Notes under the pieces: generated by a model
Seen by the model: the letters and a program-made list of their open reading frames with translations, nothing else
Databases searched by the model: none
Told to the model about the DNA's origin: nothing
Made by a program: the position numbers and the translations under genes
Part shown: in pieces, positions 1 through 12,686 of the stretch
Numbering within the stretch: position 1 is the stretch's first letter
Layout of the letters: each line of letters starts with the position of its first letter
From: Phocaeicola faecium
Lineage (GTDB): Bacteria > Bacteroidota > Bacteroidia > Bacteroidales > Bacteroidaceae
Reading direction: 5' to 3'
NCBI RefSeq assembly: GCF_014837055.1
Contig: NZ_JACSPQ010000017.1
Coordinates: 1 to 64,000 of the forward strand
Length of the DNA: 64,000 bases

Positions 1-247
1 ATCATAACTTGGCTTTTTGGACGTAAAGTTAATGATGGAAGTTGGAGACGAAAATACGTGGTTTACCGAATGCTTACAATGATACAGGTTTAGATATTCT
101 TCCTATTAAAATCCATAAGAAATTTCTGCAATTCTATGAAATTTCAAAAGGTCACTTTCACAAAGTTTTGCTTCAAAAAGGTCACCTGAGGGTCACCAAT
201 AAAAGAAAAAGCACCTACAAAATCTTTGTAAGTGCTTGATTCTTAAT
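1..247. other. left chromosomal flank of the element
   Basis: No convincing gene. A 65-codon plus-strand frame (TTG start at 42, end 239) has no recognisable domain. It contains the peptide PIKIHK, which also occurs in the same position relative to the att core at the other end of the element (about 12386-12406). The hexamer GGTCAC occurs three times between about 150 and 197. This could be the rim of an older element in the same tRNA gene; that is inference. Confidence 0.4.
209..237. terminator. hairpin next to attL
   Basis: AAGCAC-c-TACAAA pairs with TTTGTA-a-GTGCTT around a 3-nt loop. It lies just outside the left att copy, mirroring the hairpin at 12416-12448 beside the right copy. Confidence 0.5.
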
Positions 248-293
248 GTGGACCAGCCAGGGCTTGAACCTGGGACCTCCAGATTATGAGTCT
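248..293 (-). repeat. attL: 46-bp copy of the tRNA-Met 3' half
   Basis: Identical over 46 bp to 12453-12498, which is the 3' half of the tRNA-Met gene from the anticodon stem to just past the discriminator base. Identity stops abruptly on both sides (t/a before, a/g after). The 5' half of a tRNA is missing here. This is the classic footprint of tyrosine-recombinase integration into a tRNA 3' end. Confidence 0.95.
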
Positions 294-481
294 ATCAAAA
301 CTTTTGCCTGAAACTACTGTATATCAGTTAGTTAATTCTCTCTTGAAAAATCAATAGAACAACTATTGAACAACAATGGCTGAGTTTATACTAAGCCAAA
401 GAATGCACTTATTAAGGTGCTAAGTTTCTATTTCCTGCTTCTTCATAAATCACTTAGTTATTACATTATTGGGTTAATTTC

Positions 482-496
482 AGTCCAGAAGAGGTG
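482..496 (+). repeat. AGTCCAGAAGAGGTG repeat, copy 1
   Basis: A 15-bp noncoding sequence shared exactly with 6663-6677. A close inverted relative lies at 11034-11046. This copy is near the left end, just past the stop of the lipoprotein gene. Confidence 0.5.
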
Positions 497-524
497 TATT
501 ATTAGCTATCGTAATATCATTAGT

Positions 525-1253
525 CTACTTTAAGCTAAATGTAGGCATCTCTTTCTTCTCTGGTATAATCTGAACAAATGAGAGTGTCCAAGCATCTGTG
601 TCAAGTGTACCTATCCACTTCTTATTGCTGTTGCTTAATACCACTTCATTGCCATTCCTTTGATAACTGAAAGTCTCCTCTTTAGGGTTTATACAGGATT
701 CCTCTGTGTCAGAAGAAATGGTTTCTTCCCAAGTTCTGGTATGCTTGAAGTTATCCAGCTCAAGGTAGACATGTTCCATTTGCTGGCCAGTATAAGGGTT
801 GGTCTGATATAGAGTGATTGCATCTTTGGTGACTTCAAGACTGATATATGGATTGACGGTGCTTGTATAGTTCTGTGCCACATAAGTAGTGGTCTGACTG
901 TAATGTCTGATGACCTCTACCGTGGTATATGAAATGCCCTCATCACTATAATAAAGGCATTCTCTATTGGTAAAGGTCAGCTTAGCCCGTGAGCCAACAA
1001 AGGGAAGTTCACCTTGTGTTTTCTCTTCTTCATCAGTTGTGTTGACTTCACCTGCGGTACATATCAGCTCTACATTAGGAAAGTATTTATCAAGCAAATC
1101 TACATTTTCAGGAGTAACCTGTTCTATTGGTGGAACATCAAGGTAATCATCATCATAGAATGTACCATACCTCCATTCAGTACCAGCAAGTAGTTCATCT
1201 GCTGGGAAGTTTTCCTCATCATTAGAACTACAACTCATCATTATCAGAGCCAT
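525..1253 (-). CDS. putative lipoprotein with displaced start
   Basis: A 242-aa protein with no recognised family. The mature part after MMSCSSNDEE is polar and threonine-rich, with an LAGTEWRYG stretch near its N-terminus like many Bacteroidales lipocalin-like lipoproteins (compare LYQTSWRGRG in the lipoprotein at 53769). The cysteine in MMSC looks like an SPII lipobox. The first in-frame ATG gives only MALIMM before it, which is too short and uncharged. Directly upstream the same frame reads KKIYLFAA, which would complete a classic lipoprotein signal, but the codon before KK is TAG instead of ATG. The gene may therefore be poorly exported, start at a non-standard codon, or be inactivated. 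It is last in the cargo run, 30 nt after the protease gene. Confidence 0.7.
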   Translation of the reverse strand: MALIMMSCSSNDEENFPADELLAGTEWRYGTFYDDDYLDVPPIEQVTPENVDLLDKYFPNVELICTAGEVNTTDEEEKTQGELPFVGSRAKLTFTNRECLYYSDEGISYTTVEVIRHYSQTTTYVAQNYTSTVNPYISLEVTKDAITLYQTNPYTGQQMEHVYLELDNFKHTRTWEETISSDTEESCINPKEETFSYQRNGNEVVLSNSNKKWIGTLDTDAWTLSFVQIIPEKKEMPTFSLK

Positions 1254-1283
1254 AGCAGCAAATAAATATATCTTCTTCTAATA

Positions 1284-1703
1284 TTATTGGGTTTTTACTA
1301 CTAATCTGTCTAAGTCTACAATCCACCTGTTGGCTCTCAGGAAAGGCATACCAAGCACCCCATGCACTTGTATTCCAGATTCATTCTCTATATGCTTCAT
1401 TCCCTTGTATTCCTCTATGACTGAGAACACTCCAGAATATTCTTTCCCCTCCAGTTGAAAAGTTATTCCCATATATTGGGTCTTATGCTCCTTGCCCTCA
1501 AAGCCTATCATAGAACCGCTGCCTTCAAGCTCAATGAAAGACTTGGTGAAGTGCTTGCATACAAACCTGTATATGATGTTTATGGTTGCTCCTGTATCAA
1601 TCAGAAAGCATAGGTTACCTTTATTTCCATCATCAGTTGTCAACTCAATAGTAATCAGAGGTAAGCCTGTCTTAGCAATGCTCCAACTTAAATCCTGTTC
1701 CAT
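1284..1703 (-). CDS. retropepsin-like aspartic protease
   Basis: A 139-aa single-domain protein. The active-site signature FLIDTGATINII sits at about residues 32-43. The second conserved element of the fold, a hydrophobic-hydrophobic-Gly motif (VHGVLGMPFL), sits at about 113-122. The size matches one lobe of a pepsin, so it should act as a homodimer, as retroviral and clan AA bacterial proteases do. No signal peptide is visible, so it is probably cytoplasmic. Its ATG lies 1 nt after the stop of the WG-repeat gene, so the two are almost certainly co-transcribed and perhaps translationally coupled. The substrate is unknown. The fold call is firm; the role in the element is open. Confidence 0.82.
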   Translation of the reverse strand: MEQDLSWSIAKTGLPLITIELTTDDGNKGNLCFLIDTGATINIIYRFVCKHFTKSFIELEGSGSMIGFEGKEHKTQYMGITFQLEGKEYSGVFSVIEEYKGMKHIENESGIQVHGVLGMPFLRANRWIVDLDRLVVKTQ

Positions 1704-1704
1704 G

Positions 1705-2496
1705 TTATTTTATATTAGTCCTTTGGGTTAAATTACTTGTGTCAAACTTGATAGTCTTGTTATCTTTTATTGCATAAACCACACTTCCATTGCTTCTAAC
1801 AGGTAATATGTTATCATAGATGGCAGGAAGTATCTCATTACCTCGTGTATCTAAAAGCCCCCACCTCTTTATTACAGTATCATCTGTTTTCTCTTCTATG
1901 ATAACTCTAAGTGACCCATATTCAACCTTTCCAATCCACTTGTATTGAATAGGTGTAATTAACTTGCCGGTAGGAGTGATTAACCCTTTCAGGAGTTTCT
2001 TGCGAGCTGTTAAAATCTTATTGTAATAGTTGAAGCTGTCATACTCTCCAAAGGGTACAGTCATTTGGTTAGTCATGATTTCAATGATGCCTTTCTGATA
2101 TTCGGAGTTCATGACTATGGCATATTGAGCACCTATCAGAGATATGCTTTGATACTCCCCCATAAGCATTTCAATCCCATTGGTATTCAATACTCCACAC
2201 ATATTGTCTCTATATGCAACAATCATGGATTCAACCTTATTGAACTCTCCTATAAAACTGTCATATTTAGGTGGTATAACAACTTCTGCGAAGCTGTTGA
2301 TAAAGCCTATCTTACCATTCTGCACCACAGGACACAAGTAGCCTTTACATGCACCAATTAAGTCTTTGGTGATATAGAGGGAGATGCCTTTGTCTCTAAG
2401 TATTTTGACATCTCCGTCACTACATATATATGGAGTGATACTTATCATCCCATACTTCCCTTGCATTCTCTTAGTTCCATTATTGTAGGGCTTCAT
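1705..2496 (-). CDS. WG-repeat protein
   Basis: A 263-aa protein built from repeated units of the WG (KWG) type: NGKIGFINSFAEVVIPPKYD, then GVLNTNGIEM...GEYQS, GLITPTGKLITPIQYKW and WGLLDTRGNEILPAIYD. Each unit has the Gly-hydrophobic-hydrophobic-(D/N)xxG...I.P..YD pattern. Such repeats form beta-rich solenoid or propeller-like modules used for binding; no catalytic activity is expected. There is no signal peptide, so it is probably cytoplasmic. It lies between the 206-aa protein and the protease in a tight minus-strand run. WG-repeat proteins are common in bacterial accessory regions, so function cannot be read from the family. Confidence 0.82.
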   Translation of the reverse strand: MKPYNNGTKRMQGKYGMISITPYICSDGDVKILRDKGISLYITKDLIGACKGYLCPVVQNGKIGFINSFAEVVIPPKYDSFIGEFNKVESMIVAYRDNMCGVLNTNGIEMLMGEYQSISLIGAQYAIVMNSEYQKGIIEIMTNQMTVPFGEYDSFNYYNKILTARKKLLKGLITPTGKLITPIQYKWIGKVEYGSLRVIIEEKTDDTVIKRWGLLDTRGNEILPAIYDNILPVRSNGSVVYAIKDNKTIKFDTSNLTQRTNIK

Positions 2497-2519
2497 ATGA
2501 TTACCATTTATATTTGATA

Positions 2520-3140
2520 CTATTCTAATAAAACTCCTTTGAATTGTAACCTCCAGTTGGAACCATTCATTCTAATCATCAAGCAGCGAGCCATCCAGTT
2601 CTTATAATAGCAATACCAACTTCTGATAAACAAAGCATTGAAGGTATTTATTTTTATAGAAGGATTAACCAATATAGTATAGTAGGTGTAAATCGCTATT
2701 CCTATTGATACTGTAATAGGATTTAATGATTCCCACTGAGTATGTTCATCTATTATTGAAATATCTGGCTGATTCTTAAATTGAGAGTGCATGGCAAGCA
2801 TACTTATTTGCTGGGATAACATAGTCATATCTGTTAAGCTATAAAGCCATTTCATTGCAGGGTTTATTTGGTTTGCAGGATTAGCTTTATATGAACTAAT
2901 ATGGTCTTTTATTAATAGCACAAAGTTGCTGTCTGGGGTCTCATTTGGCAAGCTGTCTGAACATAGCTTTTCCTTACTCTTTAAGCACCAATAAGCATAT
3001 TGAGATTGAAGCTCTGCTAATTCTGGCATATCAGATACCTCATCAGAAGTTGGCATATATGTGGTATAACAGTCTTTGAAAGATGACTCAAAGTAGTATT
3101 CCTCAAGTAAAACATCATCTAATTCATCTATTGTTCTCAT
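2520..3140 (-). CDS. hypothetical protein of 206 aa
   Basis: No family recognised. The protein is acidic at its N-terminus (MRTIDELDDVLLEEYYFE) and has a hydrophobic segment near residues 140-160 (PITVSIGIAIYTYYTILV), possibly one membrane helix or a buried helix, then an aromatic/basic C-terminus. I chose the ATG at 3140 rather than one at 3161. It overlaps the stop of the upstream small ORF as ATGA and is preceded by AAAGGAGA, a Shine-Dalgarno-like sequence unusual for this phylum. The next gene (WG repeats) follows after 23 nt. It is first or second in the cargo transcript that probably starts near 3398. Confidence 0.65.
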   Translation of the reverse strand: MRTIDELDDVLLEEYYFESSFKDCYTTYMPTSDEVSDMPELAELQSQYAYWCLKSKEKLCSDSLPNETPDSNFVLLIKDHISSYKANPANQINPAMKWLYSLTDMTMLSQQISMLAMHSQFKNQPDISIIDEHTQWESLNPITVSIGIAIYTYYTILVNPSIKINTFNALFIRSWYCYYKNWMARCLMIRMNGSNWRLQFKGVLLE

Positions 3141-3334
3141 AAATTCTCCTTTTGCAGCCATACCACAAAAAGAAAGGTGTGATACTTTCCTGTTTTAGTC
3201 CAAGGTATCACCACAACACCTACAATCACAAACAGAGAAAGCCCACACCTTATGGTATGAGCATTCACTTGCTTACTGCTGTGATTGTTAGTCTTCAAAG
3301 TGGTGATTTTAGGACTGTCACAAGTAAGAAGCAA
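3137..3334 (-). CDS. possible small membrane protein
   Basis: This frame encodes one strong hydrophobic helix (CGLSLFVIVGVVVIPW) followed by a short basic stretch and a second hydrophobic patch (TFLFVVWL). The frame opens with TTG at 3334; a GTG at 3268 (43 aa) is a more natural start. Its stop codon overlaps the ATG of the following gene (ATGA), and a consensus-like minus-strand -7 box lies upstream at 3405-3412. Both favour it being translated. It could still be a chance frame. Confidence 0.35.
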   Translation of the reverse strand: MLLTCDSPKITTLKTNNHSSKQVNAHTIRCGLSLFVIVGVVVIPWTKTGKYHTFLFVVWLQKENL

Positions 3335-3404
3335 ACACTTCTTTTTCCAATATGTCTTTGTTAAACTTCTACTTCATTCGCTATTCATTTAATGTTTCAT
3401 GCCA

Positions 3405-3412
3405 CAAAGATA
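3405..3412 (-). promoter_or_regulatory. putative promoter of the cargo genes
   Basis: On the minus strand this reads TATCTTTG, matching the Bacteroidetes -7 consensus TAnnTTTG. A TTG lies about 18-19 nt upstream (near 3431-3434), where the -33 element is expected. Transcription would begin near 3398 and run into the cargo genes. Confidence 0.5.
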
Positions 3413-3630
3413 CTACTTTTCAGCAAGAACCAATCATGTAAAAGCCACTTTTTCAAAGTTAAACTCCAGCATATCAGATACCATAGGTATGGGCTGTGCC
3501 TTAACTACATACAAAGGTACTCTTATTCCCTGTTCCTGCTATACACAAATGCAAGTAATGTGACTACTGCAAGTGGTATAATCATGAACCTTAGTAATAA
3601 TATCAAATCTTCCATAGGTAGATACATTAA

Positions 3631-3659
3631 AAGCCCCAACCTGTAATAAGCTGGGGCTT
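3631..3659 (-). terminator. terminator of the 27-aa peptide gene
   Basis: AAGCCCCA and TGGGGCTT pair around a 13-nt loop. On the minus strand the stem is followed by a short T run. It lies 30 nt past the stop of the small gene at 3689-3772. Confidence 0.7.
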
Positions 3660-3688
3660 GTACAACAATAAACTACAGACATGGGCTG

Positions 3689-3772
3689 CTACCAGTCCAA
3701 TACCTTAGCCATTATGAAGAGACCAATAAAGAACATGGCTATCTCTCCTAAGATACTTAATACAATATCCAT
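3689..3772 (-). CDS. 27-aa single-pass membrane peptide
   Basis: A short frame reading ATG to TAG on the minus strand: MDIVLSILGEIAMFF then IGLFIMAKVLDW. It is one almost uninterrupted hydrophobic helix with a single internal glutamate and a Lys-Asp end, typical of a small transmembrane peptide. A hairpin terminator follows 30 nt downstream. Length and composition would suit a type I toxin, a holin-like peptide or a regulator of a membrane complex; no homologue is recognised. No antisense RNA promoter was identified. It lies between the replication-like genes and the cargo. Confidence 0.55.
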   Translation of the reverse strand: MDIVLSILGEIAMFFIGLFIMAKVLDW

Positions 3773-4233
3773 TTCTTAAATCTGTTATTTGTTCAACATT
3801 ACTCAATACAAGCGGCATTCTTATGGTCAAGAAAGGGATTAAGTTAAGGATGAGGGAATAGCCACATATCCTAACTTCCTTAAACAAACCTCTTCCTGAC
3901 CATAATAGCCAACCTCTTTAATGACCAAATGCACATCTAACTCTGTCTTTATATAGAGAAATCTCAAATTAGATGTGCAATTTGTGCTTGCCTTCCTTAT
4001 CCTTATAGCAGGTGTACTCACTTTCCTATAAATCAGAAAAGAGAAGTGAGTATAATCCTGTTCTGCTGTAAAGCTAATATGTTATAATATATAACATTTA
4101 TAACTTAGTGCGCAGATGTCGATTTTTACTTTAATTCCTAATAAGACAGTCCAGTATTTTTCGACACAGCAAGAATTTCCTACCATAATGGATAAGGGAG
4201 GTAAGGGGAGGGAAAGTTTACTAATCAAAGTAA
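3773..4233. other. noncoding region with paired inverted repeats, possible control or origin region
   Basis: No convincing gene. It holds two stem-loops: GCACATCTAA (3931-3940) with TTAGATGTGC (3969-3978), and TACTCACTT (4015-4023) with AAGTGAGTA (4044-4052). An AT-rich tract follows (about 4076-4102), then the ACTTAGTGCGCA motif shared with the promoter region of the helicase-like gene. A 60-codon GTG frame (3839-4021, minus) spans one stem and is probably not coding. Two hairpins, an AT-rich tract and a motif repeated elsewhere in the element would fit an origin or operator region; this is inference. Confidence 0.45.
4103..4114 (-). promoter_or_regulatory. shared TGCGCACTAAGT motif, copy 1
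   Basis: On the minus strand TGCGCACTAAGT is followed by an AT-rich palindromic tract, ahead of the noncoding region above the 27-aa peptide. The same 12 bp occurs at 10964-10975, also followed by an AT-rich palindrome. Confidence 0.5.
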
Positions 4234-5295
4234 TTACTGGATAAACCAGGAATATTCATTTTCTCCATAGAGAGCCTTATTAAGCCCCTCAGCAAGTTGG
4301 TTGGCATTGTAGGCTCTATCCAAGAAGTTATCAATATAGCTGCTCTTATTAGCTCCTGTAAGCAGGTTATACACATTCCACATGCTGATTCCGCTATTAA
4401 GGTCTTGAAGAGGTGAAAAGTTATCATCATGATAATATGCCTTGGCTACAAGGTTCACCTGTGTATCAGTCATAAGCATCAAAGGCAGTTTCCTCTTTTG
4501 CTCATTGGGCAGGTATTGATACAGCCTGCTCTTGCCCAAGAACTGTGCAAACTGCTGTTCAGTCATGTAGCTGTCCTTAAAGGCTGACATATAATAAAGG
4601 TGCTTTGATATGTTGTACTCTTGGAACAGTTGCATAGCTGAGGTAAAGAGGTCATTGATGCTCATTACCTTTAGCTCTGACTTGTAACCATCAGTGGACA
4701 CACACATATTGCAGCATACCATGTTCTTGAAGCCTATGAAAACCTTGAACTTCTCTGTTCCTTTCTTACTGTAAAGGTTCTCATGGTTGTATGCCCTTAC
4801 ACCACCTATTGTAAGGTTAAGCCTGTTACCTGCAATGTCCTCATGAATGGTGGGTATCTCGAAGCAGAACATCATCCTCTCATAATAGATGGTCTTGTCT
4901 GTTTCCAGCAAGTCCTTTACTGGCTTGTGGATGGCTTCAGGGGTTCTTCCCTTAATCACATGGCTTACCCTTATAGCTGGGCATTCAATGGTCTCATTGG
5001 GGAATACTCTATTGGCAGCTTCCCACACAGTTTCTATAAAGCTGGGGTGTGAGATTGTTATCTCATTATCCTTGCTGAATACAGGCACTACACAGTCATT
5101 CTTCAAATGTTCAATAGTGACTTCTTTTGTATTGGCTTCTATAAAAGGTAACTTATGCCCACTTCCTGACTGTGGCACTTCTGCTTCTATTATCTCTATT
5201 GGAGTAATGACCTCCGCATCATACTTCAAACTTCTGTTCATCCTGCTTGGATAAACCAAATCAGCCCTGACAGGCTGCAACTGCATTGCTTCCAT
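4234..5295 (-). CDS. DUF3871 family protein
   Basis: A 353-aa protein that I assign to DUF3871, a family found in Bacteroidetes mobile elements. Visible features are a variable acidic N-terminus (to about residue 70), a central region with IECPAIRVSHVIKGRTPEAIH and RMMFCFEIPTIHEDIAGN, and a C-terminal part with SRLYQYLPNEQKRKLPLML and a WNVYNLLTGANK motif. The layout resembles DUF932 phage/plasmid proteins that accompany recombination genes. No signal peptide or membrane helix. Its start overlaps the end of the RecA-like ATPase gene by 35 bp, so the two are co-expressed. Function is unknown; a role in element replication or recombination is inferred only from context. Confidence 0.8.
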   Translation of the reverse strand: MEAMQLQPVRADLVYPSRMNRSLKYDAEVITPIEIIEAEVPQSGSGHKLPFIEANTKEVTIEHLKNDCVVPVFSKDNEITISHPSFIETVWEAANRVFPNETIECPAIRVSHVIKGRTPEAIHKPVKDLLETDKTIYYERMMFCFEIPTIHEDIAGNRLNLTIGGVRAYNHENLYSKKGTEKFKVFIGFKNMVCCNMCVSTDGYKSELKVMSINDLFTSAMQLFQEYNISKHLYYMSAFKDSYMTEQQFAQFLGKSRLYQYLPNEQKRKLPLMLMTDTQVNLVAKAYYHDDNFSPLQDLNSGISMWNVYNLLTGANKSSYIDNFLDRAYNANQLAEGLNKALYGENEYSWFIQ

Positions 5296-6145
5296 ATCTT
5301 GTAAAATTAGGTGTATAGTTGATACTCTTGTTCTTTATCTCCTGCAACTCTGATTTCTTGTTCATGAAGTCAGAGGTAAGCTGCTGGTACCATTCAGGGT
5401 ACTGGTGATAGATTGAAGTAAGTTCCTCAATGGATTTGGCTTGGTTTATCTTACCTCTAATCATTTCTACAGTAACCCCGTCATTGCACCAGTCATTGAT
5501 AATTTGCCCTGTAGTAGGGGTTATCATGAAGTCAGGTTTGTTAATGAAAAGATTTGTCCTGTCCTTAGATACCACACACTGGTGTTTCATATTGATGTCA
5601 AAAACTATGGTAAACTCATAATCTATTCCATCCCTCATGACAGCCTTTAGACCTACCTTTTCAGGTACCATCTTGCCATTCTTCTCATTCAGCACATAAT
5701 CCTGCTTGCACCTCATGGTACAGATAATATGTCTGTCTGACTGCAATATCTTCTGCATGAAGCTGTTCATTCTTGGTGTTATCTTCTGCCAGTTAGTGAA
5801 GCTGTTCCCTTGTAAGTTGGCATGGTACTCCAGCAGGTTATCCCAGCATTGGGATATGCTGTCTATGATGATTACCTCCATGCCTGCATCCTCACATACC
5901 TTTATGGCTTCCGTATAGGTTTCTGGTGTGAAGTTCTCATTCAAGCTCAATACATTGTAACTGCCCAGATGTGCATATAAATCTGCACTTCCATTCTCTG
6001 AATCAATGACTGCTATCTTAGTCCAGTCATTGCAAAGTCCATAAGCCAGCAGCAGTGCTGAATAGGTCTTTCCACTACCTGCACAGCCTTGAAGAGCAAG
6101 CTTTATCTTAGCCTGCTTCTTGGATGATTTCCTTAGATTCATCAT
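5261..6145 (-). CDS. Sak4-like RecA-fold ATPase
   Basis: A 294-aa P-loop ATPase. Walker A is LQGCAGSGKTYS at about residues 17-28; Walker B is MEVIIIDSISQCWD at about 90-103. IDSENGSADLYAHLG follows strand 2, as in RecA/RAD51-like recombination mediators of the phage Sak4 type (AAA_24-like). Conserved downstream parts include TNWQKITPRMNSF and an arginine-rich segment (IICTMRCKQDYV). Sak4 proteins bind single-stranded DNA and promote annealing together with an SSB; no SSB gene is recognised here. A terminator-like hairpin separates this gene from the 89-aa gene upstream, so it may have its own promoter. The DUF3871 gene overlaps its end. Confidence 0.85.
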   Translation of the reverse strand: MMNLRKSSKKQAKIKLALQGCAGSGKTYSALLLAYGLCNDWTKIAVIDSENGSADLYAHLGSYNVLSLNENFTPETYTEAIKVCEDAGMEVIIIDSISQCWDNLLEYHANLQGNSFTNWQKITPRMNSFMQKILQSDRHIICTMRCKQDYVLNEKNGKMVPEKVGLKAVMRDGIDYEFTIVFDINMKHQCVVSKDRTNLFINKPDFMITPTTGQIINDWCNDGVTVEMIRGKINQAKSIEELTSIYHQYPEWYQQLTSDFMNKKSELQEIKNKSINYTPNFTRYGSNAVAACQG

Positions 6146-6181
6146 ATCAAAAAATACATTTAGTTAAACTCCTGTGGTAAA

Positions 6182-6215
6182 TAAAAAAGGTGGCAAGCTA
6201 TTCACTCACCACCTT
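6182..6215 (-). terminator. terminator after the 89-aa gene
   Basis: CCACCTT (6209-6215) and AAGGTGG (6187-6193) form a stem. On the minus strand it is followed by TTTTTT. It lies between the 89-aa gene and the ATPase gene. Confidence 0.75.
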
Positions 6216-6234
6216 CCTGACCTTCCTGACTACA

Positions 6235-6504
6235 TTACAAAGTAGCCAGAGTTGGTGCTCCTCCATCCCCTTTCTGATGGAGCATGTAGAACATGTCACC
6301 TGTATCAGGTGAACATACTTGTGAAATGACAGGATTGGTGATTTCACCGTTGATGAACTTCTCACTCACAGCTCCTGTCTCAATGCCATACACGAAGAAG
6401 CATTTACCTGTATAAGGATTCTGCTTCACTTCAATCTTGTTTACACTCATCTTGGACTTGAACTCTTCAACAGTCATAGTCTCCAAAAACTTTAACTTTT
6501 CCAT
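6235..6504 (-). CDS. hypothetical protein of 89 aa
   Basis: A small cytoplasmic protein of unknown family, starting MEKLKFLETMTVEEFKSKM. The middle (KIEVKQNPYTGKCFFVYG) looks like paired beta strands and the end is glycine-rich (HQKGDGGAPTLATL). It sits directly upstream of the RecA-like ATPase gene, where single-strand-binding or accessory proteins are often found, but no OB-fold signature can be claimed. A T-run hairpin follows its stop, so it forms its own short transcript or ends the upstream one. Start at the only in-frame ATG. Confidence 0.65.
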   Translation of the reverse strand: MEKLKFLETMTVEEFKSKMSVNKIEVKQNPYTGKCFFVYGIETGAVSEKFINGEITNPVISQVCSPDTGDMFYMLHQKGDGGAPTLATL

Positions 6505-6662
6505 TTGTCTGTAATTTTAAGTTGTTAAACATCAGTTGCAGGGGGAGAGTTAGTACCCAATAGAGTTAATGCCATTCATCAGTCTAAACCTCACTACTGG
6601 GGGTATCTCCCACTCCAAAGCAAGGGGAGGGAGGGTAAAGGTGGTTAGAGCTGGCTCATGGA

Positions 6663-6677
6663 AGTCCAGAAGAGGTG
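6663..6677 (+). repeat. AGTCCAGAAGAGGTG repeat, copy 2
   Basis: Exact 15-bp match to 482-496, in the noncoding gap upstream of the 89-aa gene. Confidence 0.5.
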
Positions 6678-6760
6678 AAAAAATAAAATAAAAAATTTTT
6701 GTAGTATAGCAGCTTGGGCAGTAGAAACAGTTATCTACTTCTATGTGTAGATATAATAAA

Positions 6761-6788
6761 CCCCTGCTTTCTGTGGTGAAAACAGGGG
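6761..6788 (-). terminator. hairpin past the polymerase gene
   Basis: CCCCTG (6761-6766) pairs with CAGGGG (6783-6788), 14 nt past the polymerase stop. The T run that follows on the minus strand is weak, so termination is only likely. Confidence 0.45.
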
Positions 6789-6801
6789 CAGTTTCGGTCT
6801 C

Positions 6802-8487
6802 TCACGTATGTGATAACATATTGTGATATTTCACTTCGCTTGGCTTCCAATAGTCTATACTTAATGTTGGAGGTATTCCTATGGCTTTGTTGAGTTCCTC
6901 TCTCATTACAGCTTGTACATACTCCCTATGTTCAACCGTTGTCGCAATAGAGTCATGTATAGTGAACACTGGAACTTGATGGTTGCACTCCTCCCATATC
7001 TTTTTACAGCACCTATGGAGTATAATCTCACTCTCCATTGATTGCAGCAGGCAAGCTAACCTATTGTGCTGTTTCTTGACAGGGACTCCTTTATACCTAT
7101 GCTTAATGATTTTAATGAGTTGGGCTACTTTGGGGAATAATTTAATGCTGAATATATTCTTCATACTGTTAATAGTGGAATTGTCATGCTTCCCCTGATT
7201 GCTTGAGAACAAGAGATAGAACATCAATACCTTTGCCTCATCTCTACTAATAGGACTCTGCAAATGGGATTGGCATACTTCTGCTATGGTTTCATACATC
7301 CTGCCATTAGCTACAACCTCTTTGTATTGAATGAAATCATCATTAGAGCACTTGCCAAAGAACTTTTCCAGTTCCAATGGTAGAGCTACAGAGGTTATAC
7401 TTCTTTGTATATCTTCTGGAAGTGAATAGAGGCTTAATGATAGCTCATTATTAACATGCCAGAACATTGGGTTAAGCAATGCACAGATAAGGTATGGTTG
7501 ACTATTTTTTATATCAATACATACCAATTCTTGACCACCATAAGTAAGGAAATTTCTGTAGTCTTTCTGTATATTGGTTATAGCTGAATGCAGCCTATGT
7601 ACATGGGTATCAATGGAAACCTTATAATCTCCTATATCAATGCTGTTGATATTGTATAGTGCAGCTTGATATTGGGTCAATGGGTGCTTCCTGACTATTA
7701 CACTCTCATTTGTCTTATCTTTATTAATATCCCATGACTGTATGCCTTGACTAAGCTTGTATTGCATAAGGTCTTGGGCATAAGAGATTGCTGCATGCTT
7801 GTCTATATGCAGCTTTTGTGTGAGATACCAATGGGACAGATAGGGGGAGTCTTCACTTAGGGTATTAGTTATAAAAGTGCCATTTTCCTCACTATAGACT
7901 TCTTGTGGAATAGCTTCTACCTTGCCTTGAAAGGCATGGTAATCATATCTTTTTAATGGCACATTGGCATACTGCTTTGTGAACTTGTAGCCTTTTGACT
8001 TCTCACCTTGAATATACTGCCCATCAGTACATAACACTCCTGTTCTTATGAGATAGTCAAGATAAGGTAAATAGTCCTTGAAAGCATTCCTTATGAGCTT
8101 GGAGTTAATAGACACATAACCATCTTCTGTAATGGAATCCTTATTCTTAGCAGGTATGGAACTGATAAGCCCTATTATATAGATAAGTCTGTCAGGGTCA
8201 AAATAAGCCCCAAGAGTTCCATTGATATTGACAGATTTTACATGTCCTGAATTATCCTTTACAAAGAAATAGTCTGTAACTGGATATTGAGCTAAATGGG
8301 CTTCTAAATCCAAATTACTTGGAATCATAGCAAAGTAACCTGAATATTTTAATTGAATACCTAAAGAGCTTACTATAGCATGCTTAGGCTCTAAGGAAGC
8401 AAAGTAGTTGACAAACTTTTCTTTTATATCACTCCACCTCTTACAGAGTATATAACTAACTGTATTATCCCTATTTATTCTATCCAT
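6802..8487 (-). CDS. divergent single-subunit nucleic-acid polymerase (family A-like palm)
   Basis: A 561-aa protein whose C-terminal half carries the three signatures of the DNA polymerase A / T7-like RNA polymerase superfamily in the right order. Motif A: LVCIDIKNSQPY, candidate metal ligand D325. Motif B: SRDEAKVLMFYLLFS, with R415, K419 and F423 spaced as in R-x3-K-x3-F. Motif C: VFTIHDSIATT, H511-D512. The conserved stretch RLHSAITNIQKDYRNFL before motif A fits the thumb/palm entrance. The first 300 residues match no exonuclease or promoter-binding domain I know. It is much shorter than Pol I (about 930 aa) or T7 RNAP (883 aa). Whether it makes DNA or RNA, and with what primer, cannot be told. 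It follows the helicase-like gene by 32 nt, as a replication partner would. Confidence 0.72.
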   Translation of the reverse strand: MDRINRDNTVSYILCKRWSDIKEKFVNYFASLEPKHAIVSSLGIQLKYSGYFAMIPSNLDLEAHLAQYPVTDYFFVKDNSGHVKSVNINGTLGAYFDPDRLIYIIGLISSIPAKNKDSITEDGYVSINSKLIRNAFKDYLPYLDYLIRTGVLCTDGQYIQGEKSKGYKFTKQYANVPLKRYDYHAFQGKVEAIPQEVYSEENGTFITNTLSEDSPYLSHWYLTQKLHIDKHAAISYAQDLMQYKLSQGIQSWDINKDKTNESVIVRKHPLTQYQAALYNINSIDIGDYKVSIDTHVHRLHSAITNIQKDYRNFLTYGGQELVCIDIKNSQPYLICALLNPMFWHVNNELSLSLYSLPEDIQRSITSVALPLELEKFFGKCSNDDFIQYKEVVANGRMYETIAEVCQSHLQSPISRDEAKVLMFYLLFSSNQGKHDNSTINSMKNIFSIKLFPKVAQLIKIIKHRYKGVPVKKQHNRLACLLQSMESEIILHRCCKKIWEECNHQVPVFTIHDSIATTVEHREYVQAVMREELNKAIGIPPTLSIDYWKPSEVKYHNMLSHT

Positions 8488-8519
8488 TATGGTAGGAAAT
8501 TTTTTTATTTCAAAGGTAG

Positions 8520-10934
8520 CTAAGATTTTTCAGACTGAGGCTTCTTTGACTTCTTATTAGCCTGAGTATCTGATATTATAAATAATTTTAACAAATCATC
8601 CTCATTCTTGTCTATCCTGTCCTTGTGACACTTGAAGCTAAGCTCTGACTTAATGATATACTCTCTCTTAGGTCTTTCTGTCTCAAAAAAGCACTTGAAT
8701 AGAGTAATGGGCTTTCTGGTATTCTCTGACCAGTCCCTATGAAAGTGATACTGTATGATGGAGTTCATTTTCTCTCTGATTTCAGCATTGGTGTACTTCT
8801 CTCCGACCTTGAACGCTTCATTTACTGACAGCCTTAAAGGATGGTTCTCAACTAAAGACCAGTATATGACCTTGTTATTAAAGTTATTGAAGCCTATCTT
8901 ATTGCCACTTTCAATGTGTTTCAAGTTGTCTATAAGCTCTTCTGTTCCCATGTAGGAGTATAGCTTGGCTACCTCCTTATAAACCTTTCTATGAATACTG
9001 CTACCTTTCTTACCTTTCTCATCAAGATATTCTTGATTGAGTTTATTATTTATATGAAGTTTCAATATCTCATCCAGTATGGCTATCCTTTCTTTGAGTT
9101 TCTTGGCACTCTGACGCTTTTTCTCCTCCTTTTCTATCTCTTGCTGAGCTTCTGGAATCTCCTCATTATTATTGGGTTCTGAGGAGGTAATGCTATATAG
9201 CTCTTTGAGTGCCTTAGCTAAAGCTGTAGGTTTGCTGTAATAGGTATTGCTGAGGTTTACCCTTAACAGTAGGCTGTCTATGTTCATGTAAGCCGCTGAA
9301 TCCTTGCTCCAGTAATCCCTTCTAATCAACTTGATATTGGGCAGTCTGCCTCTTATTCTGCCTGTAGCCTTGTTTCTCAGGGTGGTGCCTACAATAGAGA
9401 ACAGCCTTTTCAAACTGTTATCCCCCTCACTCAGCTCATCAGCAGTATTCAACAGTTTCACTATCTTTTCAGCCCTTTCTACAAGTACATTAATTTCCAT
9501 TTCCCATTGCCAATGGCAGGCTGCCTCATTATGTATTACAGTGTCACTTAATATATTAGTTGGTTTGCACAGGCTATAGACTTTGATTATATCCTTGATT
9601 GACATCAAAGTGCTGCCCTTATTTGTATCAGACACAATAATCAGATGGCATTTGCCTTTTATTTGCAGGTTATAATCTCTATAACCCAAGAATGTTATTC
9701 TTTTAGGCAGGGATTTAGATTCACCTATTGCTTTGAAGAACTTTCCAGCCTCCTCTTTATTGAACTCCCTACACCATATACAGCACTCTTTCTGCATATC
9801 CTCTTTTAAGTTGAGTATGGCTAATCTTGCCTGTTGTATAGAGGTATAAACCACCAGTACCTTGTCTTTAGCTGGCAGCTTCTCTATAGCCTCCTTTAAC
9901 GCTCCAATAATATTGCTGCATGATATGACCTTGATGTTCCTCTTGGGCAGGTTCTTCCACTTGATGACATGTACTTCCTCATTATTCAGGACAGGATGAG
10001 TAAATGCTCTATAGTCTGTGGTGTAGATACACCTTTTGCCTTTGGGGAACTTCAAGTAGAAATCCAGCACCTTGCCATTGTCAGCCTTATATGTACTTTC
10101 AGCTTGTAACTGTTCCATATCCTTGACCATGAAGAAGTACTTCTTCACTACGTCCTCTTCCTGACCCTCCTTGCTTAGCTGGTACAATAACTTGCCTGCA
10201 CTATTAGGGGTTGCAATAAACTTGTGCCTTGATTGCTTCTGAATATAGTCAGATATATCCTCTTCTCCTATTTCCTTGCTGACATACAGGCTATTTGAAT
10301 ATTTCTTAGAGTTTCTATATGCTTCACTTTCATCAGGGAATACTATAATGGAATCCCTGTCTGAGCACATTTCCAAGTAGGTAGCTCCTATATGTGGCAC
10401 CTGACATTCTATGATGCCACAAGGTGTTTCATTCCATATCTCAGATATGCACCTGACACTTTCATCACATTCAATCACCTTTATTGATGGGGGAACTTTT
10501 TCAATTTTAGAGGACAAAGGCTGCTTCTCCTGTTCTATATCTTTTGAAATAGAAAAAATACTGCTGGCAGTAGAATGCAGGGCTTCTATTCTTGGTATGT
10601 CCTTACTGAAGCTGGCTATTTCATCAAATAGGTTGCTTTTCTTTGACTTTTCTAATGCTGGTGAAGTATCTGACTTGTTGCTATTGGTTGTACTTTCTAC
10701 AGGGAGAACATCTGTTGAACTATCTTTCTTAGAAGTAGAATTTGAAGTGCCCTCTTTGTCTATATCTAATGAAGGGACAGATGGCATATCTGCTGGAGCA
10801 AACATAGCATCAAGACTGCTGAATATATCTTCCATTTGTCTTGCCTTGGCTTCACGCTCCAAGTCCTTGTCTGTGGTATTCCCACCTACAGATAGCTTAA
10901 ATAAACTTTTCTTATTGCTGTTGCCTTTCATCAC
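8520..10934 (-). CDS. helicase-like protein with degenerate ATPase motifs
   Basis: An 804-aa protein, first gene of the replication-like run. Residues 1-150 are low-complexity, rich in Ser/Lys/Asp and probably disordered. From about 150 it resembles a superfamily 1/2 helicase core: IIECQVPHIGATYLEM (174-189) lies where motif I belongs, YFFMVKDME (about 266-274) where the Walker B/DEAD box belongs, CIYTTDYRAFTHPVL like motif III, and KVLVVYTSIQQARLAILNL like the start of the second RecA domain. The P-loop reads xxGAT, so the lysine of GKT is missing, and the DEAD-like box lacks a paired D-E. It may bind DNA or act as a structural partner without hydrolysing ATP. The C-terminal third (charged, helical) matches nothing I know. 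Confidence 0.5.
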   Translation of the reverse strand: MMKGNSNKKSLFKLSVGGNTTDKDLEREAKARQMEDIFSSLDAMFAPADMPSVPSLDIDKEGTSNSTSKKDSSTDVLPVESTTNSNKSDTSPALEKSKKSNLFDEIASFSKDIPRIEALHSTASSIFSISKDIEQEKQPLSSKIEKVPPSIKVIECDESVRCISEIWNETPCGIIECQVPHIGATYLEMCSDRDSIIVFPDESEAYRNSKKYSNSLYVSKEIGEEDISDYIQKQSRHKFIATPNSAGKLLYQLSKEGQEEDVVKKYFFMVKDMEQLQAESTYKADNGKVLDFYLKFPKGKRCIYTTDYRAFTHPVLNNEEVHVIKWKNLPKRNIKVISCSNIIGALKEAIEKLPAKDKVLVVYTSIQQARLAILNLKEDMQKECCIWCREFNKEEAGKFFKAIGESKSLPKRITFLGYRDYNLQIKGKCHLIIVSDTNKGSTLMSIKDIIKVYSLCKPTNILSDTVIHNEAACHWQWEMEINVLVERAEKIVKLLNTADELSEGDNSLKRLFSIVGTTLRNKATGRIRGRLPNIKLIRRDYWSKDSAAYMNIDSLLLRVNLSNTYYSKPTALAKALKELYSITSSEPNNNEEIPEAQQEIEKEEKKRQSAKKLKERIAILDEILKLHINNKLNQEYLDEKGKKGSSIHRKVYKEVAKLYSYMGTEELIDNLKHIESGNKIGFNNFNNKVIYWSLVENHPLRLSVNEAFKVGEKYTNAEIREKMNSIIQYHFHRDWSENTRKPITLFKCFFETERPKREYIIKSELSFKCHKDRIDKNEDDLLKLFIISDTQANKKSKKPQSEKS

Positions 10935-10963
10935 TACTACAATATCATTATATTATATATAAT

Positions 10964-10975
10964 ACTTAGTGCGCA
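10964..10975 (-). promoter_or_regulatory. shared TGCGCACTAAGT motif, copy 2, upstream of the helicase-like gene
   Basis: On the minus strand TGCGCACTAAGT is followed by TATTATATATAATA, and the helicase-like gene starts about 30 nt further on. The 12-bp motif is identical to 4103-4114. Placement suggests a promoter/operator read by an element-encoded or host factor. Confidence 0.55.
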
Positions 10976-11033
10976 AAGATAGAAAAGAATCCCCATAATA
11001 CAAGTGGTGAATACGGAGATTCTTTACTACAAT

Positions 11034-11046
11034 CCACTTCTGGACT
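11034..11046 (-). repeat. AGTCCAGAAGTGG, inverted relative of the 15-bp repeat
   Basis: On the minus strand it starts within the integrase stop codon region and matches the copies at 482 and 6663 except for one base. Confidence 0.4.
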
Positions 11047-12323
11047 TAAATGTAAGCACCATTACCAAACACATATTCCATTACCAACCTGTTAGCCTCA
11101 TTTTCAGGTTCAAAGTCTCTCTCAATATAGATGTCTGTAACTTTCATAGCCTCATCTATATGATTAAGGGCTGAATGAACTGTGTACTTGTCAATGCCTA
11201 CCTTATTCACTGCTAAAGTAGCCCAACTATGCCTCGCAGCATAATATTCCAAGTCATCTACTCCTATCAGTTTGCCTATCTCTTTCAAACCATAGTTGAT
11301 AGCTTTATTAAAGCTGTCTGCTGTACTGTAATGGTGATAGAAGTTGAAAATCCTTTGCCCTTTAATATCCCTATATTTCTTCAATAAAGGCATTATCAAA
11401 GCAGGTACCTTCACTTGCATTTTGGCTTTATCAACTCTTCTGCTGGTGGTCTTAGTTCTATAATAGGTAATTACATTACTATCCAACTCACTACAGTTAT
11501 ACAAATCTGCTGAATTTATCCCTATCAAGCAGAAAGATAAGATAAAGCAATCCTTAGCAAGGTTATATCTGCCTTGAGTTTCTTTTCCTCTACTGTTGTA
11601 AAGGTAAGGCAACTTATATATCTGCCTGATGAGGTCTGCTGATATGGCTCTCTTACGGGTAGCTTCCTGTTTTGGTATTTTAAAGTTCTCAAAGGGAGAA
11701 CTGCCAATAAGTATGATATTCCTGTCATAGTCATTATAATGCTTCTTGGCTTCATTGAACAAGTGCCTGATACTTCCTAAATAGAGTGATAAGGCTCTAT
11801 TAGAGGGTACTCTTTTGCCTTGTCTTATCAGTTCCTTTACCTTAACTTCCCTTCTTGCATTGATGTATGAGGCAAATCTCTCCAGCAAACCTTTAGTCAA
11901 CTGACTTATCTTTAGCTCTTCTTGACCTAAGAAAGCCACTAAAGCATTGATAGCTGTAGTATAGTTCTCAGCTCCTTTAATGGTCGCATGAGTTATCCAC
12001 TCTCTGCTGAATTGAATGAAGTCTATCTCTTGGGATTTTATCTGTTCACCTTTCAGATGAGCTATGATGTCATCTAAGGTGTAGTGATTGATGTCAAGCT
12101 GTAGCCTTGCACACACTTCCTGATAATACCTTACTATGGTATCTGCCTCTTTAATAAACTTGGGGTTCTTTAGTTTGAATGATTTAGTTAAATCTTCTTG
12201 CCTAACAAAGATATTGGTAGACAGTCTTTTGACCTCCCTGTTATAGGTCATTCTAATCTTTACATTGTAAGTACCATCACTTTTCTGCTTGCTCTTTAGT
12301 ACTTCTGCTTTGAATGTCAACAT
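11046..12323 (-). CDS. tyrosine site-specific integrase
   Basis: A 425-aa recombinase. The N-terminal part (1-90) is the beta-rich arm-binding domain; 95-210 is the SAM-like core-binding domain; the catalytic domain is at about 225-420. Visible catalytic residues are R364 (YAARHSW), H388 (ALNHID) and the nucleophile Y399 (TDIYI). The place of the first arginine is LIGINSADLYN, with N270 instead of Arg; loss of Arg I is known in the CTnDOT-type integrases of Bacteroidetes. It reads away from the att core and starts 130 bp from it, the usual position for an integrase using the neighbouring tRNA-Met as attB. It should catalyse integration and, with an excisionase not recognised here, excision. 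Confidence 0.93.
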   Translation of the reverse strand: MLTFKAEVLKSKQKSDGTYNVKIRMTYNREVKRLSTNIFVRQEDLTKSFKLKNPKFIKEADTIVRYYQEVCARLQLDINHYTLDDIIAHLKGEQIKSQEIDFIQFSREWITHATIKGAENYTTAINALVAFLGQEELKISQLTKGLLERFASYINARREVKVKELIRQGKRVPSNRALSLYLGSIRHLFNEAKKHYNDYDRNIILIGSSPFENFKIPKQEATRKRAISADLIRQIYKLPYLYNSRGKETQGRYNLAKDCFILSFCLIGINSADLYNCSELDSNVITYYRTKTTSRRVDKAKMQVKVPALIMPLLKKYRDIKGQRIFNFYHHYSTADSFNKAINYGLKEIGKLIGVDDLEYYAARHSWATLAVNKVGIDKYTVHSALNHIDEAMKVTDIYIERDFEPENEANRLVMEYVFGNGAYI

Positions 12324-12415
12324 GTTATCTCAAATAATTTGGGAACAACAATAGACCAACATCAGCAGATTTCAGGCATATTCCTGTCAAGATTCATAAA
12401 CAGAGGATAAAAATA

Positions 12416-12448
12416 AAACTCCCATAAGCATTTAACTTACAGGAGTTT
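12416..12448. terminator. hairpin between tRNA-Met and the integrase
   Basis: AAACTCC-ca-TAAG pairs with CTTA-ca-GGAGTTT. It lies 5 bp outside the att core and downstream of the tRNA, and would stop tRNA transcription before the element. Confidence 0.6.
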
Positions 12449-12452
12449 ATCA

Positions 12453-12498
12453 GTGGACCAGCCAGGGCTTGAACCTGGGACCTCCAGATTATGAGTCT
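12453..12498 (-). repeat. attR: 46-bp core within tRNA-Met
   Basis: Perfect match to 248-293. It overlaps the tRNA from the anticodon stem through the 3' end, so the element restores an intact tRNA on this side. Confidence 0.95.
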
Positions 12499-12527
12499 GT
12501 TGCTCTAACCAACTGAGCTACAAGTCC
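12454..12527 (-). tRNA. tRNA-Met (anticodon CAT)
   Basis: A full cloverleaf on the minus strand: 5' acceptor GGACTTG, D arm GCTCAGTTGGTTAGAGC, anticodon arm CAGACTCATAATCTG with CAT at 12491-12493, T arm CCAGG-TTCAAGC-CCTGG, 3' acceptor CTGGTCC, discriminator A; CCA is not encoded. The anticodon reads ATG or, if modified, ATA. I call the elongator form from the general sequence. The acceptor stem has a U-G pair and one U-U mismatch at pair 6-67. This is the attachment site of the element; its 3' half is duplicated at 248. Confidence 0.93.
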
Positions 12528-12558
12528 GGTGTTTCATTTGTGTTTCAGAAACCGAGTG

Positions 12559-12566
12559 CAAAAGTA
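12559..12566 (-). promoter_or_regulatory. -7 box of tRNA-Met
   Basis: Reads TACTTTTG on the minus strand, 32 nt before the mature 5' end, matching TAnnTTTG. Confidence 0.55.
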
Positions 12567-12650
12567 ATAGTTTAAAAGAAAACAAACAACATTTCGGCGG
12601 AAAAAATTAATAAAAAAAACTAATAAGTTCATTGCTTCCAATATATATTG

Positions 12651-12658
12651 TATTTTTG
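12651..12658 (+). promoter_or_regulatory. -7 box of the P-type ATPase gene
   Basis: TATTTTTG matches TAnnTTTG, with a TTG 16 nt upstream. Transcription should start near 12664, inside the longer open frame, which favours the ATG at 12687. Confidence 0.6.
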
Positions 12659-12686
12659 CGTCACTGAATATTTTAATTTTAGACTT

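Follow-up and report, generated by a model that had tools for sequence, protein, structure and literature searches.

How might an integrated element that encodes a polymerase of its own, and in which no conjugation or virion gene is recognised, multiply once it has left the chromosome? The question is raised by a 64,000-nt stretch of DNA from Phocaeicola faecium (contig NZ_JACSPQ010000017.1; hereafter the window), at positions 248 to 12498 of which a preliminary description had placed an integrative element at a tRNA-Met gene. We are moderately confident that this is a pipolin-like integrative element, which would use its own tyrosine integrase (INT) for excision from and re-entry into the tRNA gene and whose circle would be copied by its own family-A polymerase (POL). 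Pipolins, in the parts of their description covered here, are integrative elements that encode piPolB (PMC7385651).

The insertion itself has clear borders. A repeat search of the window returned two exact 46-nt att copies, at 248-293 and 12453-12498, the second of which makes up the 3′ part of a tRNA-Met (CAT) gene called by ARAGORN at 12453-12527 on the minus strand. We joined the left flank (84-293) to positions 12499-13000 and aligned the product to 10 loci, nine congeneric and one from the same genome, that had been found by searching 60 genomes of the genus (own genome included) with window positions 1-293. In four of the 10 (L066, L067, L068, and L072) the joined flanks run unbroken over the junction for ∼600 to 700 nt, and the tRNA-Met gene is intact at all four of these empty sites. 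The repeats therefore mark a clean insertion and not a chance repeat: 12.2 kb is inserted at the 3′ part of tRNA-Met. Next to the tRNA gene lies INT (425 aa; 11046-12323, minus strand), which matches Phage_int_SAM_5 and Arm-DNA-bind_5 above their cut-offs and the integrase family phrog_216 at 312-411, so that the intact tRNA-Met element first described is borne out by exact repeats, integrase, and empty sites alike. The window starts at an end of contig C5 of the genome; its bases 1-77 also begin contigs C7 and C9 and, over 73 bases, C16, and they recur elsewhere in the same genome, which leaves a unique left flank of only ∼164 bp. This repetition is the probable reason for the contig ending at this point, and the repeat itself is probably an insertion-sequence end or an assembly overlap.

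By its predicted structure and motifs, POL (561 aa; 6802-8487, minus strand) is a polymerase of the family-A type and not a PolB, as had been proposed. A structure search with the predicted model returned the palm/fingers/thumb fold of family A. The motif A aspartate is present in 45/45 aligned rows, and the motif B lysine and the motif C His-Asp in 44/44 rows extending that far (a truncated row is omitted from the latter count, and two rows duplicate another row's genome). Motif B reads Arg-x3-Lys, with lysine replacing the arginine in a few rows, and in a separate alignment (A1) D325, K419, and D512 are invariant in all 57 members. POL finds no curated polymerase family in Pfam or NCBIfam, nor do the 57 aligned members in Pfam, because the protein is too divergent for those models; at E 1e-3 the family comprises 326 proteins that the Pfam models leave undetected, and the cluster of the window's own POL holds 92 member sequences. 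No exonuclease domain, FEN or 3′-5′, is recognised in POL, and ∼190 N-terminal residues fall outside the structural matches, being barely covered by the structure search. A glutamine sits where, presumably, the steric-gate glutamate would be expected. The best matches in the viral structure library BFVD are A0A8D9FR19 and A0A516L5C2 (E 5e-15 and 7e-18), and phage proteins named DNA polymerase are among the closest structural relatives there.

We also considered that POL might be a single-subunit RNA polymerase, because its motif C, HDS, has what we take to be the form seen in T7-type RNA polymerases and one homologue bears a UniRef name starting "DNA-directed RNA polymer". This assignment was not adopted, the 50 structural matches listed being family-A DNA polymerases, although the lack of RNA polymerases among those 50 proves nothing about the substrate of POL. 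A winged-helix domain at the start of the protein, hinted at by the secondary-structure prediction for residues 98-169, likewise fell away: comparison of the N-terminal part with initiator-like proteins gave profile probabilities of 0.8% and 0.2%, and a PDB sequence search was also without support.

POL is a regular companion of integrases. Scanning one genome per species yielded 24 named loci, and the window together with L002-L014 forms a close family. Twenty-two loci stand under names that we take to belong to Bacteroidota, and two come from one metagenome-assembled genome labelled Rickettsiales; relatives thus occur outside Bacteroidales, the order to which the element had at first been confined. 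Of the 24 named loci, 17 have an integrase no more than 7 kb from POL; for close-family loci on contigs above 10 kb (L002-L007 and L009-L014) the figure is 12/12, at distances of 48-4273 bp, and for ten loci with more distant POLs it is 7/10. As background, the 3.48-Mb genome of the window contains seven integrase matches. POL and integrase share a strand in all 13 close loci (the window plus 12). Except in L004, each of the 17 loci with a POL-near integrase has a tRNA gene within 350 bp of that integrase, and these tRNA genes are for Met, Arg, Lys, Gly, His, Ser, Asp, and Val plus one unassigned. The integrase-polymerase arrangement at tRNA genes is therefore recurrent in many relatives, as anticipated. 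Seven of them (L006, L009, L011, L012, L013, L014, and L020) have att repeats, and the eight elements so delimited, with that of the window, measure 6.0-18 kb; the 6.0-kb element of L009 contains an integrase, POL, and two other genes. Integrase distances correlate with POL distances (r 0.48, n=25, 0/5000 permutations as high), also within the close family (r 0.51, n=12, 7/5000). In Dysgonomonas hofstadii (L014/L041), two integrase genes diverge from a tRNA-Ser gene, and the POL element thus seems to have a second one as its neighbour.

POL was found in 7 of 100 relatives at E 1e-3, own genome included. Among viral contigs, a single-sequence scan gave no relative and an alignment-based scan gave 12 loci, four of which have an integrase near POL; L047, one of the eight without, adjoins a tail-sheath gene. 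The possibility that most homologues sit inside conjugative elements or prophages, which would have spoken against a new class of element, is thus not what the close family presents, with its integrase near POL in every long contig; among the distant relatives, these eight viral loci do point that way in part.

Around INT and POL, the elements vary. The window element has four further genes of interest here, all on the minus strand: HEL, coding for an SF2-helicase-like protein (804 aa; 8520-10934); O89, for a conserved 89-aa protein without a convincing family that occurs near POL in relatives (6235-6504); an ATPase gene (5261-6145), matching AAA_24/phrog_1366; and a DUF3871 gene (353 aa; 4234-5295; PF12987, E 3e-143), which had been correctly recognised from the start. 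The ATPase had been called RecA-like; an ATPase it is, with a weaker match of Sak4-like type. For HEL, whose N-terminal ∼147 aa are of low confidence, the predicted SF2 fold agrees with the helicase-like label, but an active helicase was rejected on its motifs, since the Walker A lysine and the DE box are missing (the lysine in 11/11 rows listed of 33 aligned). HEL is probably inactive as a helicase. The slot between INT and POL is occupied by HEL in the window, L010, and L011, by HEL plus a further gene in L014, by UvrD in L006, and by another 655-aa gene in L007; it is empty in L002-L005, L009, L012, and L013. On the 3′ side of POL follow O89, the ATPase, and DUF3871 in varying subsets. All four genes come and go between elements and are also found without POL, so the idea of a fixed helicase-like/polymerase/ATPase/DUF3871 block had to be given up. 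Common to all seven complete close elements are INT and POL only.

An example of such exchange is given by the viral contig L052. Its gene order is HEL, a 208-aa protein, O89, and DUF3871, with the 208-aa protein at the position usually held by POL. An identical protein is on record under the name Dysgonomonas sp. Marseille-P4361. The L052 protein matches phage families of the replication-initiation and DnaD-like kinds (phrog_4221 at E 2e-7, phrog_270, and phrog_186) as well as HTH_36. A replication-type protein in this position suggests that the slot is a replication slot and lends indirect support to such a role for POL.

Three further sets of loci share genes with the element. L053 (MT839478.1) is a 4.25-kb scaffold from Mexican human faecal samples, deposited as phage and marked UNVERIFIED, that has an HEL-like fragment, O89, the ATPase (83%), and DUF3871 (75%), and no POL. 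L093 (NZ_OY725960.1), a circular 15.5-kb record from Bacteroides finegoldii, encodes two integrases, a restriction-modification gene, DUF3871 (56%), and a 208-aa protein that is 28% identical to the initiator-like protein of L052 and a possible distant relative of it; POL, O89, ATPase, and HEL have no match in this record, which is possibly an excised relative. Finally, in congeners, copies of the tRNA-Met att sequence lying kilobases apart bound other gene sets (L087-L092), some with HEL-like proteins or DUF3871. All were checked as further POL elements and all are devoid of POL; the att site looks like an integration hotspot in these genomes.

The element has ten genes, all on the minus strand, and scans of their products against Pfam, PHROG, and NCBIfam families matched no relaxase, conjugation, capsid, terminase, portal, or tail family, in line with the preliminary description; the sole tail-type match, of the ATPase to a tail-fibre family at E 0.085, is at chance level. 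For 56 proteins of seven relatives, relaxase and type IV secretion were lacking among the 25 families listed of 33, and virion genes among the 25 listed of 41; for 37 of those proteins, all 12 families found were free of relaxase and conjugation functions. An element without a relaxase may still be compatible with an oriT acting in trans. Together with a size of 6-18 kb, an integrase, and a replication-type gene, the absence of virion genes also fits a phage satellite, that is, a self-replicating element packaged by a helper phage, with cargo guarding the host against competing phages. Defence-type cargo is indeed present in the relatives: SIR2_2 and AAA_21 in L014, NOV_C/Sacsin in L020, FRG, and Abi_C; PADLOC matches such cargo as well. 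The L053 scaffold, with its phage label and four shared genes, belongs on the same side, but it is UNVERIFIED, has no POL, and viromes contain bacterial DNA. No terminase, capsid, or known packaging-hijack gene was seen among the families listed and no helper is known, and we regard a satellite as somewhat unlikely. Further genes in relatives encode HicB, RadC, ADP-ribosylglycohydrolase, PsbP (L009), and LRR (L011) proteins. GajB models match 1 of 57 scanned proteins, and the UvrD of L006 may be GajB-like, i.e., serve defence rather than replication.

If POL copies the element, where would it start? A candidate, of which the preliminary description had made no mention, is a pair of inverted sites found by repeat and motif searches. 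The direct copy (8481-8504, minus strand; core 8484-8499) overlaps the POL start codon and the inverted copy (4171-4194, plus strand; core 4176-4191) lies 3′ of DUF3871; the 21 nt that they share exactly form an inverted repeat longer than any other exact one in the window element. The core, TTTCCTAHCATAATGG, occurs with ≤2 mismatches at the POL start in 13 of the 14 close loci. An inverted copy is present in 10/14, and in the four without (L002, L003, L005, and L008) the contigs end 0.2-1.7 kb past POL; all seven complete close elements have both copies. The inverted copy varies in position: within POL in L004, L009, and L014, directly after it in L010 and L011, after DUF3871 in the window, L006, and L007, and further on in L012 and L013.

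Several controls argue that the pair is no accident. Shuffles of the window gave a mean of 0.18 matches against the two observed, a number reached in 1/100 shuffles. A 19-nt form, allowing one mismatch, occurs in 3/393 genomes of the order (exactly only in the own genome), and the reversed pattern in 8. In 8 of the 10 elements examined (not in L006 and L004), no other exact inverted repeat is as long as the pair, and in six of those eight the pair exceeds all 40 shuffles. Within an element, the partners resemble one another: across nine element pairs they differ at 5/144 positions, compared to a mean of 17.5 when partners were re-dealt, with 1/20000 re-dealings as low (L010, near-identical to L011, was dropped, and L007 is represented by its copy away from POL). 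We therefore judge from these alignments that the partners covary and that the POL-linked pair is real in the close family. Perhaps one distant element also has such a pair: L055 carries a different 23-bp perfect inverted pair, whose arms lie 20-42 nt ahead of POL and beside a tRNA-Met gene, respectively.

Other roles for the site were considered. It is unlikely to be an integrase arm site because ∼4 kb separates both window copies from the att repeats. Nor did it stand out as a DNA hairpin, the three folds made being no better than shuffles. A primer-transcript start was rejected as well: boxes of the type TAnnTTTG, which we take to be the promoter consensus, precede several direct copies and, judged by eye, none of the inverted ones. 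One such box, TACCTTTG, lies at 8511-8518 (minus strand), 31 nt upstream of the POL start and directly outside the segment between the sites. This box, the inverted orientation, the near-identity of partners within an element, and the presence of a tyrosine recombinase would suit an inversion switch, in which the recombinase flips the segment and turns POL off or on. Since POL and integrase share their orientation in all 13 close loci, we hold such a switch to be decidedly unlikely, even though loci flipped inside POL (the L004, L009, and L014 type) could have escaped the search. A similarly poor candidate is action in RNA, whereby the inverted copy, carried on the same transcript, would pair with the leader of POL and its start codon and so limit POL synthesis. 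In favour, the direct copy of the window overlaps the start codon, and partners lie downstream, from inside POL to further on, and covary; against this, elements share the actual sequence of the site, more than base pairing by itself would demand, and the L012 partner is 9.9 kb away, near the element end. Tentatively, we propose from the sequence patterns that the pair is the start or recognition site of POL.

The scheme we prefer, a self-copying integrative element, would run as follows. INT would excise a circle from the tRNA gene and could return it, as the att and empty sites suggest. POL, which on the modelled fold, the active-site residues, its constancy, and its replacement in L052 is probably the replication protein of the element, would copy the excised circle. 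Copying might start at the two inverted sites, one per strand, a speculative step with less than even prospects that we liken to two-origin strand displacement. HEL, O89, the Sak4-like ATPase, and DUF3871 would act as optional helpers in origin opening, strand annealing, and loading, and spread from cell to cell would rely on another element or a phage. More tentatively still, the family may represent a phylum-wide replicon of one protein and two sites that fits into a 6-kb element, a divergent family-A polymerase recognising the inverted sites, and hence an independently evolved family-A counterpart of pipolins.

A number of observations weigh against this scheme. No integrase accompanies POL in seven of the 24 named loci, namely L018, L021, L022, and L023 and three contigs below 6 kb (L008, L024, and L025), and the correlation of integrase and POL distances may come partly from host phylogeny. 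POL is rare, with 6/393 genomes of the order positive at E 1e-20, own included. An exact search of IMG/VR for the attP junction gave no match, and a DNA search of plasmid and phage records with the whole element no near match. As to the sites, the N-terminal part of POL has no detectable homology to the 208-aa initiators and so offers no evidence of site binding; L007 is the sole close locus whose direct copy lies away from POL; the pairs of L009 (16 bp, largest shuffle 17) and L007 (15, a tie) do not stand out from shuffles; and L020, a complete but distant element, does not have the pair. In the other 16 distant loci the arms are 10-13 nt, apart from a 16-nt arm near POL in L021, leaving L055 as the sole clear equivalent.

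Last among these points, the sole plasmid with a POL homologue (Hymenobacter, 28% identity) is annotated with a replication initiation protein and ParA as well. A polymerase beside a Rep of the plasmid's own is what one would expect if POL were cargo, a repair or anti-phage polymerase, and the element were replicated by the host or not at all. The defence-type genes of the relatives and the possibly GajB-type UvrD of L006 are in keeping with this. Those genes vary, however, and POL is the usual partner of the integrase; its place is taken by an initiator-like gene in L052, and phage proteins named DNA polymerase are near it in structure. We thus consider cargo an unlikely role for POL and retain that of replication protein.

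Seen beside known systems, the element resembles pipolins, in the parts of their description covered, in its att repeats, tRNA target, recombinase, self-encoded polymerase as hallmark, and otherwise variable cargo (PMC7385651). To this extent the likeness to pipolins first suggested holds; it ends at the polymerase, which is of family A and not piPolB. The conserved inverted site pair is described here for the present elements. A 2026 survey of bacterial DNA polymerases distinguishes PolA1-PolA3 and a PolA1-like group, and the POL type is not described in the parts of it covered (PMC12926913). Like PolA1, PolA2, and PolA3 as presented there, POL has the palm-fingers fold and motifs A, B, and C; unlike them, it has no recognised FEN or 3′-5′ exonuclease domain, no Pfam match, and ∼190 N-terminal residues beyond the structural matches. 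The best viral-library structures, A0A8D9FR19 ("Putative DNA polymerase I," uncultured marine phage) and A0A516L5C2, are similarly short polymerases of ∼400 aa, but virus-encoded according to the library and 15-20% identical. The circular B. finegoldii record shares integrases and DUF3871 with the element and differs in having no match to POL, O89, ATPase, or HEL. PrimPol-PV1 offers a parallel, insofar as the parts of its report covered go, of chromosomal replication enzymes proving to belong to integrated elements, with an archaeo-eukaryotic primase fold there and a family-A polymerase here (PMC5862659). A literature search by titles and abstract openings found no description of such elements; subscription papers, e.g., the 2023 reclassification of family-A polymerases, lay outside its scope. 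For family B, integrated elements with self-encoded polymerases are known; to have them with family A as well, in one of the main gut phyla, would mean that such a way of life has originated repeatedly. If correct, our reading would also give a large polymerase family without a name its function, and the site pair provides a concrete, testable place to begin asking how such an enzyme selects its template.

The remaining genes of the window element, all on the minus strand, are cargo: those of a 213-aa protein with no family matched (2520-3161), a WG-repeat protein (1705-2496; PF14903, E 9e-15), a retropepsin-like aspartyl protease (1284-1703; PF13650, E 6e-4, under its cut-off), and a lipoprotein-like protein without a family (525-1253), a homologue of which lies near DUF3871 in L052. 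Another TAnnTTTG-type box is found upstream of HEL at 10974-10981 (minus strand), again by what we presume to be the consensus. A 27-nt direct repeat (81%; 4088-4114 and 10949-10975), ending in ACTTAGTGCGCA, lies upstream of HEL and near the inverted site, and L006 has the similar motif TAAGTGCGCA as a 17-nt inverted pair; the repeat is possibly a second regulatory motif. Outside the element, window positions 25969-47427 look like a polysaccharide-utilisation region, with what we take to be a SusC/SusD-like pair, three GH97-like proteins, and a hybrid two-component regulator.

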